36,261 bases of DNA from Bacillus sp. ISL-45 (GTDB lineage: Bacteria; Bacillota; Bacilli; Bacillales; Cytobacillaceae): positions 1 to 36,261 of the forward strand of contig NZ_JAGGQQ010000020.1 of assembly GCF_018613195.1 (NCBI RefSeq), written 5' to 3'. The notes under the pieces were generated by a model. That model had not been told where the DNA came from and made no database searches. It saw only the letters and a program-made list of their open reading frames with translations. Positions 918-24,850 of this stretch are shown here, one piece after another. Position 1 is the first letter of the stretch. Every line of letters starts with the position of its first letter. The position numbers and the translations under genes are program-made.

Positions 918-2116
918 CTAAATGAGTGTCATGAGTGTTCCACCTATAGCGCCTGATACTACAATAATCCAAGGTGGTAACTTCCAATAAACTAACATGC
1001 TAAACAATATCGCTGCAAATGCAAAGTCAATTGGTGCTAAGATTGAACTAGTCTAAATGGGTTGATAAAACGCTGAGATTAATATACCAACTACTGCTGC
1101 ATTTACTCCCATTAGGGCCCCCTTGACTTTAGGGTTTCGACGTAGGCTATCCCAAAATGGAAGTGTCCCTAAAATTAATAAAAATGCAGGTAAGAATATA
1201 GCAACTGTTGCGAGGATCCCCCCTTCCCATCCATTCATGACAGCACCTAGATAGGCTGCAAATGTAAATAACGGACCTGGTACAGCTTGGGCTGCCCCAT
1301 ATCCTGCAAGAAACGCCTCTTCACTCAACCAGCCAGTCGGTACAAATTCCCGTTCAAGCAATGGTAAAACGACGTGTCCTCCTCCAAATACAAGAGAACC
1401 AGAACGGTAGAAACTATCAAACATAGCAATCCAGTGAATTGAGGTAACTTCTCTTAATATTGGAAGAAGAATGAGTAAACCAAAAAACAATACTAAACAT
1501 ACTAATGCAAAGCCACGGCTAATCGGAAAACTAACTCTATCATCAGACTCATCTTTATGTTGTCTATAAATCAGGAAACCAATGAATGCTCATAGGAGAA
1601 TAATTCCCACTTGAGTAAATGCTGTTTGCCACAATAATGTAACGATTAAAGCTAACAATGCGATTGCTTTTCTTTTTAAATCAGGAGTTAGCTTTTGAGC
1701 CATTCCTAAAATAGCATGTGCAACGACGGCAACGGCAACAATTTTTAAGCCATGAACCCATCCTGCGTCACTAACATCAAACCCGTTAAGAATCAACGCA
1801 AAAATAATTAGTGCAAGTACAGAAGGTATTGTAAAACCTAGAAATGAAACAATCCCACCTAATACTCCCGCACGCATGACACCTATACCTATTCCTACCT
1901 GACTACTAGAGGGCCTGGTAAGAACTGACATAAAGCAACTAAGTCAGCATAACTTTTTTCATCCATCCACTTCCTTCTACGGATATATTCATCATGAAAA
2001 TACCCCAAATGGGCAATAGGCCCACCGAATGATGTGAAACCTAATCTAGTCGATACCATTAAAATTTCAAGTAATGATTTAAATAGACTTTTTTCTTTCG
2101 CTATTGATTTATCCAC
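918..2116 (-). pseudogene. chrA: Chromate transporter ChrA, broken by three lesions
   Basis: Read together, three frames rebuild a full-length two-domain CHR-family chromate/proton antiporter of about 390 aa. The N-terminal half starts at GTG 2114-2116 (MDKSIAKEKSL...) and carries the FGGP motif; the second half carries FGGGHVVLPLL and AVPGPL. Lesions: a one-base deletion near 1911 (QFLPGP switches frame before SSQVGIG), an in-frame TGA at 1590-1592 (IILL*AFIGFL), and a TAG at 1053-1055 where a Trp is likely (FYQPI*TSSIL). After the TAG the frame stays open to TAG 918-920 with a normal last membrane segment. It is the last gene of the ars/trxB operon. Three independent lesions make sequencing error an unlikely full explanation. 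Confidence 0.85.
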
Positions 2117-2164: not shown

Positions 2165-3139
<975 letters not shown>

Positions 3140-3158: not shown

Positions 3159-3587
3159 TTAAGCGTTCGGATAGATTTTCTTTAATGCTTCCTTCATCTC
3201 TGGTTTTACATTAATTTTTGGTCTAACTGATTTTGCTATTTCCTCTGCAGCGTCAATAGTATTAGCTTGACCCAAATCGAGAAGTGTTCCAACTGCAACC
3301 GTCCCTGTGCGATTGCTGCCTCCCATGCAGTGAAAATAAATCTTCTTTCCTTCGTTGTAGGCATTTACGACTTCATTTATCGCCTTCTTAATAGCTTCTT
3401 CTTGGCGCTTTTCATCGTCCACAATTGGACTATGAATACGGTTATAATCAGAAGCTTCTTCAGGGGATTCTGCACGCAAATCAAAGATGACATCTACCTT
3501 TTCATTTTTCATAACGTCATGGACATCATCTGCACCGCCAATAAAAATACGATCCTTAATTAGTGCATGATAGTTTTTTTCACTCAT
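3159..3587 (-). CDS. Dual-specificity/tyrosine phosphatase-like protein
   Basis: A 142-aa cysteine phosphatase. The signature HCMGGSNRTG (86-95) matches HCxxGxxR(T/S) with nucleophile Cys87 and Arg93; a DLR segment (36-38) and an aspartate-rich loop (57-58) could supply the general acid. The small size fits single-domain dual-specificity phosphatases. It lies between the HesB-like gene and trxB in the ars operon. Because phosphatases of this chemistry can bind arsenate, a role in arsenate handling is conceivable, but the substrate is unknown. RBS AGGGAGG lies before the ATG. Confident for the fold, not for the role. Confidence 0.85.
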   Translation of the reverse strand: MSEKNYHALIKDRIFIGGADDVHDVMKNEKVDVIFDLRAESPEEASDYNRIHSPIVDDEKRQEEAIKKAINEVVNAYNEGKKIYFHCMGGSNRTGTVAVGTLLDLGQANTIDAAEEIAKSVRPKINVKPEMKEALKKIYPNA

Positions 3588-3604: not shown

Positions 3605-3883
3605 TTAACAGCAGTCACTTTCGTTTCCTAGCAGAACAAATGCATTTTTATCTTCTGACACATCTAATGTTAGACCCTCGATATGTTCTTCAATATTTAG
3701 GTCTATTGCAACCCTGATTTCATTTATAGTTACTACTTTATCCTCTGCTTCCGGCTCATCCAGAGCCAGTCCAACCTGTGGCTTTCCTCAGCCAAAGCCC
3801 GCAAAGTAAACGCGGATGCCACCGGCAGCTTGATCATGAAATACTTGCTTCAAAAGATCACGCGCATCATTGGTGATTTGCAT
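3605..3883 (-). CDS. HesB/IscA-like protein with in-frame TGA (candidate selenoprotein)
   Basis: ATG 3881-3883 to TAA 3605-3607 gives 92 residues with one TGA at codon 32 (3788-3790). The product begins MQITNDARDLLKQVF, reads GIRVYFAGFG-[TGA]-GKPQVGLALDEP, continues with a normal Fe-S_biosyn (HesB/YadR/YfhF) body, and ends ESDCC. Homologues carry Cys at exactly the TGA position (GFGCGGP), and HesB-like selenoproteins with Sec there are a described bacterial family. The frame stays open and conserved after the TGA. A 7-bp hairpin suited to a bacterial SECIS lies 19-37 nt downstream of it. It sits between arsA and the phosphatase in the ars operon. The alternative is a one-base Cys-to-stop mutation: the neighbouring chrA is decayed, and no sel genes are in the window. 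Confidence 0.75.
3751..3769 (-). promoter_or_regulatory. Candidate bacterial SECIS hairpin
   Basis: On the minus strand CTGGCTC and GAGCCGG pair over 7 bp (one U-G) around the loop UGGAU. The loop begins 26 nt after the TGA, inside the 16-37 nt window described for bacterial SECIS elements, and has G in one of its first two positions. An alternative smaller hairpin closer to the TGA has GU in its loop. Functional only if the cell has SelB and tRNA-Sec. Confidence 0.5.
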
Positions 3884-3905: not shown

Positions 3906-5675
3906 TTATTTTAAGTAATTTTGCAAGTGTTTATAACCCGAATTATCTTGATTAATAAGCGGAACAATTGCACATTTAACAGCTAGTTCCTTATCTACTT
4001 TCTCGATCCATCTTTCTTCTGATATAGCTCTCCCACTTAAAACAGGATCAATAGTTTTAGTAGCGTACAGGCTTTGATTTACTACCCACCATTTAGGCTG
4101 AATACCAGCTCGCTTTAAATCTTCCTGTAAACGGCTCGCTTCCAGAACAGGTGTAGCTTCCGCCAAAGTAACAATTACTACACTTGTCTCTCGTGGATTT
4201 CTTAAACGGGGCAAAAGCTTTTCCACGCTCTCTGGTACTTCACCTGTAGAACGTGCTAGTTCTTTATGAAAGGACTGAGCAGCATCTAACAGTAGTAAAG
4301 TATGGCCAGTGGGTGCAGTATCAATAACGACGATTTCATCCTGTGAACGGTTCACAACTTCTGCAAACGCTCGGAAAATAGCGATTTCCTCTGTACATGG
4401 AGAATTCAAATCTTCTTCAAGATAAGCAATACCAGCTTCATCTAACTCTTTGCTGGCTTTTGAAAGAACTTCATTTTTGTAAGCTTCCACTTCATGCTTG
4501 GGATCAATTCTACTGATGGTTAGCAACTCATTAATTTTTTCATCCCGGAACATAAATTCAAGATGTGCCGCCGGGTCAGTGGTAGTTAAATGAACTTTCT
4601 TTTCCTCTTCCACTAGTCCAAGTGCAATTGTCGATGCCATCGTCGTTTTTCCTACTCCGCCTTTGCCCATGGTTAAAATAACCCTGGTTCCATTAATGGA
4701 GAAATCCTTAATGACTTCTTTCAAACCAGCTAAATCATATTTTAGGGCTGTAGAAGGTGTTTCTGAAGCTGACATCGTATAATGTTTTAATAGAAAACGC
4801 AGATTCTCAATTCCAGTTAAAGAATAAGAGACAAATGGTAAACAAAATGAGGGTACTTGTTTCAAAGAATCGGGCAACTTATTTAAAGCATTTCGTTGCT
4901 TTTGATAAAAGGAAGTGGAAACCTCATCAGTCGGAACATATTGCTTCATCAAACCATTGATAATTAATAATTGTTTCGTAATCCCTATCTCTCTCAATTC
5001 CTGTGAGGCTCTATCAGCTTCGAATAAAGATGATTCATCTGGTCTTGTCACCATGACTAAAGTAGTTTTAGCAGGGTCTGATAGTGCAGCAACTGTCTTA
5101 GAGTAAATATCCTTCTTTTCTGAAAGCCCTGATAGAGGCCCTAAACAAGAAGCTCCATGTGTACTCTCTTCTAGAAATCCTGTCCATGCATTAGGAAGTT
5201 GAAGAAGTCTCAATGTATGTCCCGTTGGCGCAGTGTCAAAAATGATATGGTCATACCCTTCTACAATTGCTGGATCTGCAAGCAAACTAGTAAATTCATC
5301 AAAAGCAGCTATTTCAACTGTACAAGCACCGGATAATTGTTCCTCCATTGTTAATACAACAGAATCAGGAAGCTTCCCTCGGTATGGGCCAACCACTTTT
5401 TCTCGGTAAGTTTTTGCCGCCTCTTCAGGATCTAAATTACATGCAAAAAGATTATTTACACTTGGCATAGACAATGGAGTATTTGATAATTCAATATCTA
5501 AAACATCTTGCAGATTAGAGGCCGGATCCGTACTAACTAATAATACTTTTTTTCCTTGATCAGCTAAAAAAACGGCAGTCGCACATGCTGTAGATGTTTT
5601 CCCTACTCCGCCTTTACCTGTAAAAAACAGAAATGGGGTGTTAACAGCTACTTTAGGATTAAAAGGTTGGTACAT
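3906..5675 (-). CDS. arsA: Arsenite-activated ATPase ArsA
   Basis: A 589-aa tandem-repeat ATPase that energises ArsB. Each half has a P-loop GKGGVGKT (about 20-27 and 336-343), a signal motif DTAPTGHTL, and a Cys before the EIAxF helix (SGACTVEIAAF and NSPCTEEIAIF). A further Cys in GASCLGPL completes the usual As(III)/Sb(III) site. The length matches full ArsA rather than the single-domain Get3 relatives. It follows arsD by 15 bp. As(III) is received from ArsD and passed to ArsB at the membrane. Confidence 0.95.
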   Translation of the reverse strand: MYQPFNPKVAVNTPFLFFTGKGGVGKTSTACATAVFLADQGKKVLLVSTDPASNLQDVLDIELSNTPLSMPSVNNLFACNLDPEEAAKTYREKVVGPYRGKLPDSVVLTMEEQLSGACTVEIAAFDEFTSLLADPAIVEGYDHIIFDTAPTGHTLRLLQLPNAWTGFLEESTHGASCLGPLSGLSEKKDIYSKTVAALSDPAKTTLVMVTRPDESSLFEADRASQELREIGITKQLLIINGLMKQYVPTDEVSTSFYQKQRNALNKLPDSLKQVPSFCLPFVSYSLTGIENLRFLLKHYTMSASETPSTALKYDLAGLKEVIKDFSINGTRVILTMGKGGVGKTTMASTIALGLVEEEKKVHLTTTDPAAHLEFMFRDEKINELLTISRIDPKHEVEAYKNEVLSKASKELDEAGIAYLEEDLNSPCTEEIAIFRAFAEVVNRSQDEIVVIDTAPTGHTLLLLDAAQSFHKELARSTGEVPESVEKLLPRLRNPRETSVVIVTLAEATPVLEASRLQEDLKRAGIQPKWWVVNQSLYATKTIDPVLSGRAISEERWIEKVDKELAVKCAIVPLINQDNSGYKHLQNYLK

Positions 5676-5690
5676 GTTTTCACTTCTTTC

Positions 5691-6047
5691 TTACTTGAAA
5701 TCAATTTTCTTAACGGATTTCTTTTCTTTAAGTTCAGAAATACTTAAACCTGACCATTCTGAGAGCTGTTCATTTGTAGGATACTTCCCTAATGCAATAA
5801 TCTCTCCATCTAATAACGTGACTGGCAATGCATCTGCACCTTTTTCATGAAGTATTTTATTTACAGCCTCATTTTTCGCAAATTTTCCCGGCTCGTTTGC
5901 CAAGTTGTATCGAGAAATATCAAAACCCTTTTTTTGTAAAAGGAATACTGCAGAAGCCATCCTTGTCAATTCCGGATCAACACTTGGTCCACATACTCCA
6001 GTAGGACAACATAATGCAGGATCAAAGATTTCGACTTTTTTCATCAA
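5691..6047 (-). CDS. arsD: Arsenic metallochaperone ArsD
   Basis: 118 aa from the first ATG; a second ATG follows at once, so the start could be 6044. The N-terminal DPALCCPTGVCG gives the Cys pair and third Cys that bind As(III) (Cys12, 13 and 18 in the usual numbering with the second Met). The thioredoxin-like fold continues with a cis-Pro loop (ALPVTLLDGE). It lacks the extra C-terminal Cys pairs seen in some enterobacterial versions. It hands As(III) to ArsA and can act as a weak co-repressor. It lies between arsC and arsA. Confidence 0.93.
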   Translation of the reverse strand: MMKKVEIFDPALCCPTGVCGPSVDPELTRMASAVFLLQKKGFDISRYNLANEPGKFAKNEAVNKILHEKGADALPVTLLDGEIIALGKYPTNEQLSEWSGLSISELKEKKSVKKIDFK

Positions 6048-6103
6048 AAAACTCCTTTAGCTTTGAAAATAGCCAAGAGAATATACCTCTTGGCTAATAA
6101 GAT

Positions 6104-6523
6104 TTACTTACCTGTTTCCGCAAATGTTTTGATTCGGTCTTTAATCTCATCACGTACACGCTGGAAGAAAGCCCATTTCTCTTCTTCTGTACCTTCAGCT
6201 TTTGCTGGGTCATCAAAACCCCAATGCTCACGTTTTACGTGTGGTGGTGTCATTGGGCAATGCTCATCTGCATGGCCACAAAGAGTAACGACTAGATCAG
6301 CGTTATTCAGGATTTGAGGGTCAATCACATCAGATGTGTGGTTGGAAATATCTACTCCTGCCTCTTTCATCGCTTTTACTGCATTAGGATTTAAGCCGTG
6401 CGCTTCTAGGCCAGCACTCTTAACTTCCCACTCATCTCCAAGATATTGTTTAGCCCAGCCTTCAGCCATTTGGCTTCTGCAAGAGTTTCCAGTACATAAA
6501 AAGTAGAGTGTTTTTTTAGTCAT
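6104..6523 (-). CDS. arsC: Arsenate reductase ArsC, thioredoxin type
   Basis: 139 aa, a low-molecular-weight phosphatase-fold enzyme. The P-loop CTGNSCRS holds nucleophile Cys10 and Cys15; the redox helix has Cys82 and Cys89 ([11 protein letters not shown]), exactly the spacing of the B. subtilis and S. aureus enzymes. It reduces arsenate to arsenite through a Cys10-Cys82-Cys89 relay with thioredoxin, in keeping with trxB in the same operon. It begins 18 bp after arsB with a GGGAG-type RBS. Confidence 0.97.
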
Positions 6524-6541: not shown

Positions 6542-7843
6542 TTAGATAATTAGTAACCAAATATATAGTCCTACAAGTGTAATAAACAAAGTAGGGATGG
6601 TTAAAATGATTCCTGTTTTAAAATAAGTGCCCCATGAAATCTTTACGCCTTTCAAAGAAAGAACGTGGAGCCATAGAAGTGTTGCCAATGAACCAATCGG
6701 AGTAATCTTCGGACCCAAGTCTGAACCAATGATATTTGCGTATATAAGTGATTCTCGGATAACTCCTGTTGTGTTAGTATCTGCAATCGCCAAAGCATCT
6801 ATCATGACTGTTGGCATATTGTTCATAATTGAAGACAAAATTGCTGCAATAAAACCCATGCTGATTGTTGCGACAAACAAGCCCTGATCAGCCGCAACCT
6901 GGATAACATCTGCAAGGATGTTCGTCAAACCAGCGTTTCGCAGTCCATAAACGACTACGTACATTCCAATCGAGAAGAAGACGATTGCCCAGGGTGCTCC
7001 TTTTACAACATTTGAAGTGTGGACAGCAGGGCTTCTTCTAGCCATGATCAAAAAGAAAATGGCAACGATACCCGCAATAAACGATACCGGGATATTCAGG
7101 AATTCACTTGCGAAATATCCGACAAGCAGGATACCTAATACAACCCACGAAAGTCTGAACATCTTCATATCCTTGATTGCTTCTACCGGCTTCTTCAAGT
7201 CAGACATCTCATAGTTCTTTGGGATGCTTTTACGGAAGAATAAATATAAAACCAAAATACTTGCTGCTAAAGAGAAGAAGTTTGGCACGATCATTCGAGA
7301 AGCATATTCGACGAATCCAATATCAAAGAAATCGGCGGAGACTATATTTACCAAGTTACTTACTACTAATGGCAATGAAGTCGTATCGGCAATGAATCCA
7401 CTCGCGATAATAAAAGGAAACACCATTTTTTCTTCAAATTTCAGATTCCGCACCATCGCCAAAACAATTGGTGTCAAAATCAAGGCCGCCCCATCGTTCG
7501 CAAACAACGCAGCTACGGCTGCACCCAACAGAGACACGTAAACAAACATTTTAATACCGTTGCCTTTTGCAGCTCGTGCCATGTGCAATGCAGACCATTC
7601 AAAAAATCCAATTTCGTCTAAAATGAGGGAAATAATAATGATAGCGATAAATGCTAGTGTCGCATTCCAGACAATCCCGGTAACATCAATAACGTCCTGG
7701 AAATCGACAACACCAAAGATTAGGGCCAAAATCGCTCCACCTACCGCTGACCAGCCAATTCCCAGCCCTTTAGGCTGCCATATTACCAAAGTCAGTGTCA
7801 CTAGGAAGATAAGTGAAGCTATAATTGCTAATGACAAATTCAA
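6542..7843 (-). CDS. arsB: Arsenite efflux permease ArsB
   Basis: 433 aa and very hydrophobic, with about 11-12 membrane segments, as in ArsB/NhaD-type permeases. Recognisable stretches are [42 protein letters not shown] and [14 protein letters not shown]. It expels As(III)/Sb(III), alone with the proton gradient or with ArsA. It starts 9 bp after arsR, with GGAGGTGTTTG just upstream, so the two are co-transcribed. Confidence 0.95.
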
Positions 7844-7852
7844 ACACCTCCG

Positions 7853-8197
7853 TTATTCACAAGAAATTCGTTTTCCTTGCTTTTCAAGTTCTGTTAATTT
7901 TTCTTCCTGACTAGGCAGTGCATTTAAAAGCAATTGTACAAAATCAAATTGTTCATACTCCTGATTAAGCGAGTAAAAGATCCATTGGCCTCTCCTGCTT
8001 TCTTTTACCAGCCCAGCATCCTTTAATTTTCGGATATGCTGGCTAATAGCCGGCTGACTTGTATCGAAAATCTCTACAAATTCACAAACACAGCAATCAT
8101 GGTCGGCTAGGATCTTCACCATAGTTAATCTTGTTTTGTCACCGAGAAGCTTTAGCAAAGCTGCAGCATGTTCAATATCTATACCTTGTTTTATCAT
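7853..8197 (-). CDS. arsR: Arsenical resistance repressor ArsR
   Basis: 114 aa, ArsR/SmtB winged helix. The metal-sensing segment DHDCCVCEF has Cys35, Cys36 and Cys38 in the alpha-3 position (ELCVCDL in the classic repressor), so As(III) binding should release DNA. The recognition helix is SQPAISQHIRKLKDAGLV. It is first in the operon and reads from a promoter overlapping a CACTT/AAGTG palindrome (see that entry). RBS TGGAGGT lies 7 bases before ATG. Confidence 0.95.
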   Translation of the reverse strand: MIKQGIDIEHAAALLKLLGDKTRLTMVKILADHDCCVCEFVEIFDTSQPAISQHIRKLKDAGLVKESRRGQWIFYSLNQEYEQFDFVQLLLNALPSQEEKLTELEKQGKRISCE

Positions 8198-12200: not shown

Positions 12201-13007
12201 TTAAATCTTTTGCTTTAAATCTTTTAGGAACTGGACTAATGCTTCTCCTGGTTCCTCATTTTGATAAACAATGGGGATGATTCCTCGTTCTTTCAATAGC
12301 CTTTCTTTAACAGGATTTGGGTCCACTAAAAAAATGTATGAGTTTGGTCGTAAAGATTCGTATCTAGATTTCTCCCATTGTTTTTGTAATTTATATAACA
12401 TATACCTTATGTTAATATCGGATAAGCTATATCCAATAAACAAAATTGATTTTCCTAAAGAATCGGATCGCAGCTTAATATCCAAAGGTGATTCAAAATC
12501 CAGTCTGTTAAAAAAACTTGATTCGGTTAAAACGATGGATGAATCGTGATCAAAGTCCCCATGAAACTTGATGATCTGTGGTGTATTTTCTTTAATTCTT
12601 GCAATGTCCACCATATTTGTAATCTTTATATAATCCTTTTTATAATAATCGTAAGCATATTCCAGCCATCTATCAAAGTTAGTCGTATAGATAATTGGAA
12701 ACCCAATTTCTACAATGATTTTATGAATTTCTGATTGCCCAATATCTATATTAGGATTATGCCACTTACGATCCATCCAACTTCTAAGTTCACCTAAAGA
12801 ACCCTTTTGATGAAAGTAATATTCAGCTAAGATCAAAAAATCATTATTTCCCCAAGCATTAAGAACTTCTGGGTCGAATCCAAGCTGGCTGGCCATTTCA
12901 TCAATCAATTCTCCATATGTTGGTAACCCCAAGTTTTTGGATATACCAGAACCCACGAAAAGAATGACATTATTATCTTTTATTAAATGAACTAATTCAT
13001 TTATCAT
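12201..13007 (-). CDS. Stand-alone SIR2-family protein
   Basis: 268 aa, a SIR2_2-type Rossmann domain. NAD-binding FVGSGISKNLGLPTYGEL (17-34), TTNFD (108-112), catalytic-type His in KFHGD (147-151) and FIGYSLSDINIR (190-201) occur in the usual order. There is no zinc-binding Cys quartet, unlike deacetylase sirtuins. Proteins of this branch are common NAD+-degrading effectors in anti-phage systems (ThsA, DSR, SIR2-APAZ and others), and some act alone. No partner gene is adjacent on its strand. RBS AAGGGGTG precedes ATG. Defence use is inference from family and setting beside a recombinase. Confidence 0.8.
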   Translation of the reverse strand: MINELVHLIKDNNVILFVGSGISKNLGLPTYGELIDEMASQLGFDPEVLNAWGNNDFLILAEYYFHQKGSLGELRSWMDRKWHNPNIDIGQSEIHKIIVEIGFPIIYTTNFDRWLEYAYDYYKKDYIKITNMVDIARIKENTPQIIKFHGDFDHDSSIVLTESSFFNRLDFESPLDIKLRSDSLGKSILFIGYSLSDINIRYMLYKLQKQWEKSRYESLRPNSYIFLVDPNPVKERLLKERGIIPIVYQNEEPGEALVQFLKDLKQKI

Positions 13008-21308: not shown

Positions 21309-22581
21309 ATGAAATCACAAACAACTTCAACACCACTTCAAACACCTTTCTATTATGGATGGATGATTGTCTTTATCGGGGCATTGGGCGTATTTTTTTC
21401 CGGTCCTGGCCAGACATACTCCATTTCGGTATTTATCGACCACTATATCGCTGACTTCGGGTGGTCAAGGTCTCAAGTATCCGGCATTTATTCCGCGGCT
21501 ACACTAGCAGCTGGATTAAGCATGTTCTTTGTAGGCAGATATATAGATCTATATGGTCAAAGAAAAATGTCTGTCATCATTGGAATTGCCCTAGCCCTTG
21601 CTTGTTTTTGGAACAGTCTTGTCTCAAATTTCATCATGTTATTCATTGGCTTTTTCTTTCTAAGGCTATTGGGTCAGGGATCTATGACCTTAATTCCCAA
21701 TACCCTCGTTCCTCAATGGTTTATTGAAAAACGAGGTAAAGCACTTAGTCTAATGGCTATTGGTGGATTTACAAGTTCCGCTGCTTTCCCACCTCTAAAC
21801 ACATGGTTAGTCTCCAATTGGGGCTGGAGTTTCTCATGGAAGCTTTGGGGAATATTACTGTTATTTATTTTTGTACCCCTAGCATTCTTTTTAATTCGCA
21901 ATAAACCAGAAGATGTTGGAATGCTTCCAGACGGTGAGGATCATAAAAAGCAAACTCCTTCTGTTGGAGAACAACCAAAGAAGATATTAGAGATTAATTG
22001 GACTCTGCAGGAAGCAAAGAAAACAAGTGCTTTTTGGCTTTTGCTCGTATGTGTTAGTATCCCAGCACTTGTGAATACAGGACTAACATTTTCACTTGAT
22101 ATCAATCTTTAAACAAAATGGACTTTCATCGGGCACCGCTGCAATAGTTTTGAGCCTCATGGCAATTGTAGGATTCCCTATTTCATTAGCTGCCGGATAC
22201 ATTTTAGACCGCGTAAAAGTGAACTATATTTTAGCAGGAATCTTTGCAGGTGAAATTATATTTGTCGTTCTGCTTCTTTTTGTAAAGTCTTACCTCCTCG
22301 CCATCATTTTTGGCGTACTGTGGGGGATTAGTGGGGGATTCGAAAGAATTGCCTTAATTTACGTCTGGCCAAGTTACTTTGGAAGATTAGCTCTTGGAAG
22401 TATAAAAGGAAGCGCAATGACAGTCATGGTACTTGGGTCAGCATTAGGACCACTCCCTTTCGGATTCGCCTATGACCTGTTTGGGGGATACGAGTAAATA
22501 TTATTGCTAACCACCATCTTTCCTGTAATGGGAATAGCCTGTTCACTGCTTGCGAAGAAGCCGGTGAAAGAACAAGGCTAA
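21309..22581 (+). pseudogene. MFS transporter (oxalate/formate-antiporter-like), broken
   Basis: The protein starts normally (YYGWMIVFIGALGVFFSGPGQTYSISVF; about 6 helices, LIRNKPEDVGMLPDGE central loop). A one-base insertion in a T-run near 22091-22094 throws it out of frame; it should read LTFHLISIFKQNGLS in the second frame (22096-22497). That frame ends at TAA 22495-22497 inside GGYE*ILLLTTIFP, then stays open to TAA 22579-22581 with the expected C-terminus. Two lesions therefore break a roughly 420-aa 12-helix permease. The first lies in a homopolymer and could be a sequencing artefact; the second is not. Confidence 0.85.
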
Positions 22582-22646: not shown

Positions 22647-23801
22647 TTACCAATCCATATTAGCTTCACGATCATAAATATATGATTCTTTTTCTAAAAA
22701 GTACTCTAAATTTTCATCTGAAGTAACTGCCCATTTTAGCTCTGAAACATACTCCGCATCAAACCTTATCTCCGGTATAGACTCTACAATTTTAATAGCC
22801 CTGTTCCATTCGGATTGATATAGGAATTCTTCAAACCTATCAATAATTTCGCACATTTCTTTATACTTTACACCTTTAATTAATAAAAATGAGAATACTT
22901 CATCCGGTTGAGATGGTACCTCAACTGGAATAGCGCCTACCCCTTTAATATGAGCAATTAAAGATCCGTTCCCTTTTTCAAAACCTCCGTGAGCGTGTTT
23001 ATTTCGTATCTCTTTCAAATTTTTTAGTGCTTCATAGTATTTTAACAATTTACGATTATTTTCTAATTCAAATATTTTTTTAAATTTATCACTCCAATTG
23101 GAATTGATTATATTAGGTATTGGTTCTGTTTTATAATCTATTTTTGTAAAAGGTAAAAGCAGTATTAACAGATGTTCTTGGAAACTAAAATACGCATCAA
23201 GCATTGCTTGTGTATTAAAAATTATTTCTTTTTCAAGATTAACTTTGCGATTTAACCCATAAGCAATGCTTCCTACAGGATAATCTTCGTTATTTTCAAT
23301 TTCGTCGTGAATTTTTTTTACGGTTCTTCTAAAATACAAATATCTTTGTCTAAGTAAACCAGTTTGATTCTCAATAGTTATTTCCCCATTATCTATCGCT
23401 TCATTAATTAAAGGCCGTAAAAGGCTTTCTGCAATTTTACTTGCGCTATTTAACTTTTTGAATAGATCTTTTAGTAAGTCCTCTTCAACATTTGAAATAC
23501 CTAAATTCAATCCAAATTTCTTCATTGAGAAAACACCATAAATATTTTTATATTTAAAAGGTATTTCATATAATATCTTTTCCATAGGTTTATATGTATG
23601 ATTAAACTCTAAAAGTTGGACAAAAATAGCATAAATCATATAAGGTTCAATATAATTTACATCTAATTGTTTTACCTTTAAAGTATATAAATCCTTACAA
23701 TATACTTCTTCTAGCTTTATACTTTCAATGTCTCTAGTACACATGATTAGGTTTTTAAATTTTTTTTGTTGCTCTTTCATTATTCTTTCTTTTATATTCA
23801 T
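22647..23801 (-). CDS. Unknown protein with HEPN-like RNKxAHG motif (gene 2 of pair)
   Basis: 384 aa, mostly helical. No family is recognised with certainty. NLKEIRNKHAHGGF (261-274) fits the R-x4-H core (Arg266, His271) of HEPN domains, which are often RNases or nucleotide-modifying partners. It is embedded in long helices, as in Apea-like HEPN proteins. The C-terminal ELKWAVTSDENLEYF parallels LWCLTSEDS of the partner. The start overlaps the partner's stop (ATGA), so translation is coupled. AT-rich relative to the core genes, suggesting transfer. No signal peptide or membrane helix. Confidence 0.75.
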   Translation of the reverse strand: MNIKERIMKEQQKKFKNLIMCTRDIESIKLEEVYCKDLYTLKVKQLDVNYIEPYMIYAIFVQLLEFNHTYKPMEKILYEIPFKYKNIYGVFSMKKFGLNLGISNVEEDLLKDLFKKLNSASKIAESLLRPLINEAIDNGEITIENQTGLLRQRYLYFRRTVKKIHDEIENNEDYPVGSIAYGLNRKVNLEKEIIFNTQAMLDAYFSFQEHLLILLLPFTKIDYKTEPIPNIINSNWSDKFKKIFELENNRKLLKYYEALKNLKEIRNKHAHGGFEKGNGSLIAHIKGVGAIPVEVPSQPDEVFSFLLIKGVKYKEMCEIIDRFEEFLYQSEWNRAIKIVESIPEIRFDAEYVSELKWAVTSDENLEYFLEKESYIYDREANMDW

Positions 23802-24850
23802 ATTAACGTAATTCTCCTGTTTTTACCTTGACTATCCTCTGAAGTCAAACACCAAAGAATATCTGCTAATATCCTATCTAGTTCACAGCAAATATTTAGA
23901 TAGATCCAATTTTCTCTACTATATTCAAAATAATCAAAGTAATAATTTTTCATAAAATGTGCAGCATACTCTTCTAATTTTTTTTGTAATCCGAGAAAAT
24001 CTCCATGAGCTATTTTATTACGAATTTGTCGAATTATTTTTGCAAACAACTTCTTTTTTTCATTATTTTCAAATCTATCTGACTCTATAAACAAGGCAAA
24101 TATATCATCGAATTTATTTGGGTCAGTAAAATCTTCTTTTCCTATAACCATTTCAATTAATGAATAATTTTTAAAAAGATGATACGCATTATAATTGCTA
24201 TCATCTGCTATAGCGGTCAGAATATAATCTAACATATAAAAATATTCTTCCTTCTCAATAAATAAATCTATTCTTCTACCAAAGTCTATAAGGCTATCTA
24301 TTTTTCTTCGGTTAAAAGAAATTGGATCCATATTAATATCGATATTCATTTCAGAATATAGCGTTCTGAATACATTAGTCTGTTCAAATAAGCTATTACC
24401 TGATGAATACATACAGGTTAATGGAATCCAATTCCTTTTATTACCTCCATTCCCGAGAAAAAATTCATATAAATTAATCCACTTCTCTGCAAACTCTATT
24501 TCGCAAGTAGGGCTATCTATATAAGGGTTCTTATTTTGAAGCATTGAATTTTCAAAGTCCTCAACAATTATACAAGTCAACTTATTTGCAATTTCTTCCA
24601 AATAATTCCCACTTCTTTGACCTAATATTCCTGAGAAATTTTTATGTTCAACGATATTTTTAGCATTGTATGCTTTTACATTTGTAAGGTCGGTGTATTT
24701 CTTAATATCATATTCCCTATGATGGATTTCTTCCTCCATTGTTTCTATTAATTCTTCTTGCCAATCATAAGAAAGATTAGATAAAGTGATTCCTAATTTT
24801 TTGGAAATCACAATTGGTTCTATTTCGGCGAAAATATTAACCACGATCAT
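23798..24850 (-). CDS. Unknown protein with HEPN-like RNKxAHG motif (gene 1 of pair)
   Basis: 350 aa, acidic and helical. IRQIRNKIAHGDF (273-285) carries the HEPN R-x4-H signature (Arg277, His282) in the C-terminal third, followed about 50 residues later by ADILWCLTSED. The N-terminal two thirds have no motif I know. RBS GAGGAG precedes ATG; a promoter is seen 90-115 bp upstream. It forms a two-gene unit with the 384-aa gene. Two similar HEPN-type proteins together suggest a heteromeric complex or a toxin with a related regulator, but this is inference. Confidence 0.75.
   Translation of the reverse strand: MIVVNIFAEIEPIVISKKLGITLSNLSYDWQEELIETMEEEIHHREYDIKKYTDLTNVKAYNAKNIVEHKNFSGILGQRSGNYLEEIANKLTCIIVEDFENSMLQNKNPYIDSPTCEIEFAEKWINLYEFFLGNGGNKRNWIPLTCMYSSGNSLFEQTNVFRTLYSEMNIDINMDPISFNRRKIDSLIDFGRRIDLFIEKEEYFYMLDYILTAIADDSNYNAYHLFKNYSLIEMVIGKEDFTDPNKFDDIFALFIESDRFENNEKKKLFAKIIRQIRNKIAHGDFLGLQKKLEEYAAHFMKNYYFDYFEYSRENWIYLNICCELDRILADILWCLTSEDSQGKNRRITLI

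Follow-up and report, generated by a model that had tools for sequence, protein, structure and literature searches.

The question raised by this locus is whether a TGA triplet inside a small HesB-like gene of an arsenic-resistance (ars) operon is a stop codon or a codon for selenocysteine (Sec, U). The gene lies in a 36,261-nt stretch of DNA from Bacillus sp. ISL-45 (contig NZ_JAGGQQ010000020.1; the whole stretch is hereafter named the window), which is contig C13 of a host genome of 4.6 Mb. The evidence presented below makes it very probable that the product is a genuine selenoprotein with the IscA/HesB fold, expressed as part of the ars operon. Sec decoding at codon 32 is near certain from the comparison of sequences, and for the protein we infer a role in arsenic resistance. 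The first-pass annotation of this DNA had proposed both: the Sec part is now carried by the Sec machinery, the conservation of the TGA and the selenocysteine insertion sequence (SECIS), and the role in arsenic resistance stays a proposal.

The HesB-like gene and its in-frame TGA codon

The gene and the elements within it are the following:

3605..3883, minus strand: predicted selenoprotein gene of the HesB/IscA type (product of 92 residues with Sec at position 32, ending in ESDCC; open reading frame (ORF) read with TGA as U)
3788..3790, minus strand: in-frame TGA, codon 32, read as Sec (TGA in 78 of 80 named homologous loci)
3751..3769, minus strand, loop at 3762-3758: predicted bacterial SECIS hairpin CUGGCUC-UGGAU-GAGCCGG (published model, codon conservation, compensatory changes)

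The ORF starts with the ATG at 3883 and its final TAA ends at 3605. Codon 32 occupies the position of the ligand cysteine of the HesB/IscA family, and its context, read on the minus strand with TGA as U, is GFG-U-GKPQVGLALDEP. Thus, the conserved in-frame flanks and the CC terminus noticed in the first-pass annotation were confirmed in a 92-residue ORF, to which the minus strand, not given there, can be added. The HesB-like identity was also corroborated. With C substituted for U, the protein scored 28.6 bits against PF01521 (Fe-S_biosyn, HesB/IscA superfamily), above the Pfam gathering threshold of 26.3. Two models of selenium-containing relatives, TIGR01911 (HesB_rel_seleno) and NF038090 (IscA_HesB_Se), gave 44.5 and 48.4 bits, under their curated cut-offs of 66.35 and 85, respectively; all 49 members of the family alignment match both models at E 1e-5 or better, which is an E-value and not the curated cut-off. 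The predicted structure is an IscA fold, according to a structure model and a fold search, and no thioredoxin-like fold was present among the matches listed by that search.

Conservation of the TGA codon

The nearest named homologue, 97% identical and located in the same kind of operon, is that of Mesobacillus selenatarsenatis SF-1 (L095), and homologues were found in 39 of 61 related genomes. At the codon-32 site, 78 of the 80 named homologous loci have TGA, one has TGC and one TAA. The TGC belongs to Thalassobacillus, in whose genome selA was not detected. Fifty further genes all have TGA at the family site with the coding frame intact on both sides, and this arrangement reaches down to about 45% identity. 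Since relatives keep the TGA, it is not a mutation private to this strain. The TAA locus (L100, positions 6001-6276, Bacillus sp. V3-13) has its frame and hairpin otherwise intact and selA in its genome; it is a real nonsense case at the Sec codon. The relative G266 was considered as a second nonsense case and rejected, since it has a Cys form whose TAA lies at the C-terminus. At locus L135 the full TGA gene is accompanied by a second, shortened one, whose hairpin can still be made out.

Cysteine occupies the Sec position in nine homologues and in further ones. The residue after Sec is Gly or Arg in all 114 TGA rows of the alignment and Ser in two further genes. Among the 21 ars-linked Cys forms whose site was read, which are not independent cases, 19 have Cys-Cys there and two a single Cys. 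A tree calculated from 124 short proteins (103 with Sec, 21 with Cys) required only four Sec/Cys changes; it was built from 91 columns, and 67 of its 121 inner branches are unsupported.

Selenocysteine machinery of the host

The host genome contains selA (560 bits), selB (366 bits) and selD (395 bits), each above its cut-off, and a tRNA-Sec of 58 bits with the anticodon UCA assigned by ARAGORN. With selA, selB, selC and selD all present, the selenoprotein proposal does not fail for want of machinery, which the first-pass annotation had named as one way in which it might. The host selD itself carries an in-frame TGA (context STKAG-U-GC), and three formate dehydrogenase family matches contain one TGA, two of them exceeding the cut-off. 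The background rate is given by the order as a whole, where selA exceeded its cut-off in 116 of the 249 genomes sampled. This indicates that Sec use in a relative of Bacillus is common and not unusual, contrary to what had been supposed at first.

In the same sample of the order, TGA forms go together with selA: all 62 genomes with the TGA form have selA vs 6 of the 48 with TGA-free forms only, a comparison uncorrected for kinship. Of the 124 matching genomes, it uses the 111 whose match, among those listed, reaches 59 bits or more; the one remaining genome has a TAA, located at the C-terminus. Every one of the 62 genomes has one or more genes in which TGA was confirmed at the family site, and the site was read in 14 of the 48.

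The hairpin downstream of the TGA

As the first-pass annotation had described, the hairpin has 7 bp and its loop, of 5 nt, begins at nucleotide 26 after the TGA; one of the pairs is U-G. The published model for bacterial SECIS elements (PMC13188914) asks for a loop of 3-9 nt, a stem of 4-16 bp, a G in the first two loop positions, a spacing of 16-37 nt and an energy of at most -7.5. With the loop UGGAU, 7 bp, a spacing of 25 and -11.1 kcal/mol, the window hairpin agrees with it. The model was applied to 99 distinct TGA rows and nine Cys rows, with L085 (a fragment) and L100 excluded: 90 of the 99 close TGA genes passed, energy included, as did 76 of 4898 other codon positions and none of the nine Cys forms. 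Among the more distant TGA genes, 32 of 50 passed, and many of the failures were narrow (-7.2 to -7.4).

Conservation of the element was counted in 102 distinct sequences out of the 114 TGA rows, again without L085 and L100. The motif GCTCTGGA[TG]GAGCC is present in 96 of these 102 genes close to the query, its core GCTCTGGA[TGC]GA lies at one fixed offset in 99 of them, and the motif was found in none of nine Cys forms. The Ala, Leu, Asp and Glu codons within the hairpin are 98-100% one codon, compared with a mean top-codon share of 0.60 across 26 other conserved codons. A wider comparison took in 47 distinct of 50 new sequences and 34 earlier ones. Once 79 distinct sequences had been aligned, 96.7% of the pair cells are paired and 33 cells are altered on both sides; none of 500 shuffles reached 33, and the best slid register gave 17. 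These matched changes belong to the more distant relatives: one stem pair changes from U-A to G-C in five sequences, with GCT/GAG becoming GCG/GCG, and another from G-C to U-G in fifteen. On these comparisons, the hairpin behaves as a SECIS would.

A SECIS model built from the homologues found four sites in the host genome at E <1e-5, the next match having E 0.29. Besides the window gene, they comprise its two paralogues (contigs C1 and C11) and a more distant HesB-like gene, which lies about 17 kb from selA. This last one (L178, host C25:185362-185409) is a fourth HesB-like TGA gene with a SECIS and has diverged from the ars type. In the C11-type paralogue, TGA and then TAA follow the last Cys, and a second, C-terminal Sec was considered there and rejected; this TGA is most simply a stop, because the relatives L043, L044, L048 and L066 have TAA directly there.

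The arsenic-resistance operon

The HesB-like gene is flanked on the same strand by the following genes:

7853..8197, minus strand: arsR, first operon gene (HTH_5, ArsR family)
6542..7843, minus strand: arsB, arsenite pump (ArsB, 771.6 bits)
6104..6523, minus strand: arsC-type arsenate reductase with the low-molecular-weight phosphatase fold (LMWPc; arsC in an annotated relative)
5691..6047, minus strand: arsD, metallochaperone (ArsD, 144.9 bits)
3906..5675, minus strand: arsA, pump ATPase (ArsA_ATPase, 345.7 bits), its stop 22 nt before the HesB-like ATG
3159..3587, minus strand: dual-specificity-type phosphatase (DSPc), 17 nt past the HesB-like stop
2165..3115, minus strand: thioredoxin-reductase-like trxB (Pyr_redox_2; trxB in an annotated relative)

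The order is therefore arsR-arsB-arsC-arsD-arsA-hesB(U)-phosphatase-trxB, with the HesB-like gene co-directional, separated from its neighbours by gaps of 22 and 17 nt, and conserved in this setting in relatives. At least two same-strand ars genes are found near 49 of the 80 named loci and one near two more, so that the arsenic operon setting proposed in the first-pass annotation is well founded. The dual-specificity phosphatase is adjacent in 20 of the 80, and trxB occurs in seven, each with two or more ars genes as well. The host has three close copies, of which those on C13 and C1 are in ars operons and that on C11 is not. Both forms also occur on plasmids: in Cytobacillus firmus the TGA form, under which no feature is listed, follows arsRBCDA-trxB-phosphatase, and in Priestia megaterium a Cys form, labelled adhesin, follows arsRBCDA-phosphatase. 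On gene order, the HesB-like gene is a recurring putative ars accessory, whose family is also found elsewhere.

The label 'adhesin' is carried in public plasmid records by two ars-linked Cys-form HesB-like proteins (L094:6001-6285 and L093:2539-2820). Beside trxB in the window, a chrA-type chromate transporter gene (1053-2116, minus strand) is broken into three ORFs, two pieces of which match Chromate_transp; its decay had been correctly noticed before.

Proposed function and alternative explanations

A mechanism that accommodates these data would be as follows. At the UGA of codon 32, SelA, SelB, SelD and tRNA-Sec of the host would insert Sec, steered by the conserved hairpin 18 nt downstream. 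The Sec32 selenolate together with Cys91-Cys92 may form a metal or cluster site, as the three cysteines do in IscA. Once the operon is released by ArsR, the protein would bind a soft metal(loid) such as As(III), or alternatively guard and re-supply Fe-S clusters hit by arsenite; it might be re-reduced via the thioredoxin system, trxB being two genes downstream. For the chemistry, our tentative first choice is a carrier or trap that would bind As(III) through its thiols and selenol.

Several points weigh against the selenoprotein of the ars operon as described here. The whole case is built from sequences, and the protein is a predicted one. The folding energy of the hairpin is ordinary taken by itself (z -1.06, 29 of 200 shuffles folding as well), and it is raised above chance by its conservation, not by this energy; nine of the 99 close and 18 of the 50 distant TGA genes miss the strict energy cut. 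The C-terminal Cys pair falls in the weakest region of the structure model (pLDDT about 50). No ars gene was found at 29 of the 80 loci in the stretch searched, the queries not including acr3 and the upstream flanks being short at three loci; hence, arsenic cannot be the role of the whole family. One TGA paralogue that lacks ars genes (L111:5900-9024) stands beside DsrE-, TusA-, rhodanese- and MBL-like ORFs (named by eye), a sulfur-transfer-like cluster. Finally, the TAA of L100, present despite selA, implies that the protein can be dispensable in at least one strain.

The alternative that survives best, and our second choice of chemistry, is an Fe-S carrier or repair factor for arsenite-damaged Fe-S proteins that is not an arsenic binder; we consider this possible. 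IscA-type proteins carry Fe-S clusters, and the fold, the PF01521 match and the structure 1x0g, an IscA with a [2Fe-2S] cluster, agree with such a role. The vicinal Cys-Cys that replaces Sec in most ars-linked Cys relatives would suit the binding of a thiophilic metalloid instead, a point that is suggestive only. The third choice, a selenol redox enzyme that works with TrxB or the phosphatase-like protein and reduces arsenate or selenium oxyanions, seems unlikely: trxB and the phosphatase are indeed operon neighbours, here and at the loci counted above, but the fold is of a metal- or cluster-binding type, not thioredoxin-like, and the ArsC of the operon, as known for its family, already reduces arsenate.

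Readthrough of the TGA by another route (a suppressor tRNA, or TGA read as Trp or Cys) might be entertained, the inserted residue being predicted here from sequence. It is most improbable, given the tRNA-Sec with its UCA anticodon, the presence of SelB, the association of TGA forms with selA, the Cys found at the site in relatives without selA and the normal ends of most window ORFs. The competing explanation of the first-pass annotation, by which a dying gene beside the decayed chrA has undergone a single-base change from Cys to stop, would fit the split of that neighbour and the proof by L100 that nonsense changes occur at codon 32, but it is already refuted by the TGA conserved across genera with an intact frame, the synonymous and compensatory constraint on the hairpin and the selA that accompanies every TGA genome.

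Comparison with known systems

HesB-like selenoproteins are a described selenoprotein family (PMC1794560, PMC5029168, PMC13188914). The window protein resembles those of TIGR01911 and NF038090 in its small IscA-like domain with Sec at the conserved HesB cysteine, and differs in its scores under their cut-offs, its place in an ars operon and its CC end. There is also a published precedent for a HesB-like gene among ars genes (PMC4562236, PMC5481582): the ars1 operon of Bacillus sp. CDB3 (arsRYCDATorf7orf8) has a HesB-like orf7 and, like the window, combines it with thioredoxin reductase and a dual-specificity phosphatase. The gene order differs, being hesB-phosphatase-trxB in the window, and the term selenium has a count of zero in the available text of PMC4562236.

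Unlike IscA and SufA of E. coli, which are A-type Fe-S carriers with 15-25% identity to it, the window protein has Sec for the first ligand Cys. Its C-terminal CC stands against the Cys-x-Cys of E. coli IscA, the C-terminal motif of that protein. ArsD, which is small, rich in cysteine and regarded as an As(III) carrier, belongs to the same operon and offers a functional analogy only, since its fold family (PF06953) is unrelated.

In the open-licence PMC literature searched, as far as its text was available, the Sec form of HesB in ars operons was not found. What therefore appears to be new, within that literature, is that Bacillaceae ars operons have the Sec version as a regular component, together with its covarying SECIS and a Cys-Cys counterpart. 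Five of five Cytobacillus plasmid records list no annotated feature under the gene, in a gene table known to be incomplete, and ordinary annotation is likely prone to overlook it. This would be a widespread selenoprotein within the ars operons of common soil Bacillaceae, easily missed. The Sec and Cys-Cys forms in the same operon setting would provide a clean comparison of what selenium adds to metalloid handling.

A further idea, which we hold to be doubtful, is that of a selenium-dependent arm of arsenic resistance, where one Sec32 selenolate replaces Cys-Cys binding and the two forms are exchangeable by host. If true, Sec-using hosts would have the Sec form and others the Cys-Cys form in the same ars operon, and arsenite tolerance would depend on selenium supply, a link that is testable.

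Other features of the window

A SIR2-like protein is encoded at 12201-13007 (minus strand); in PADLOC it matches ThsA models best, the match covering only residues 1-215, and a resolvase gene adjoins it. At 22647-24850 (minus strand) there are two adjacent proteins of 384 and 350 amino acids with no Pfam match at 1e-5, the first with weak PADLOC matches only. A gene for an MFS transporter (21309-22497, plus strand) is apparently split into two overlapping frames, the first part of which matches MFS_1.
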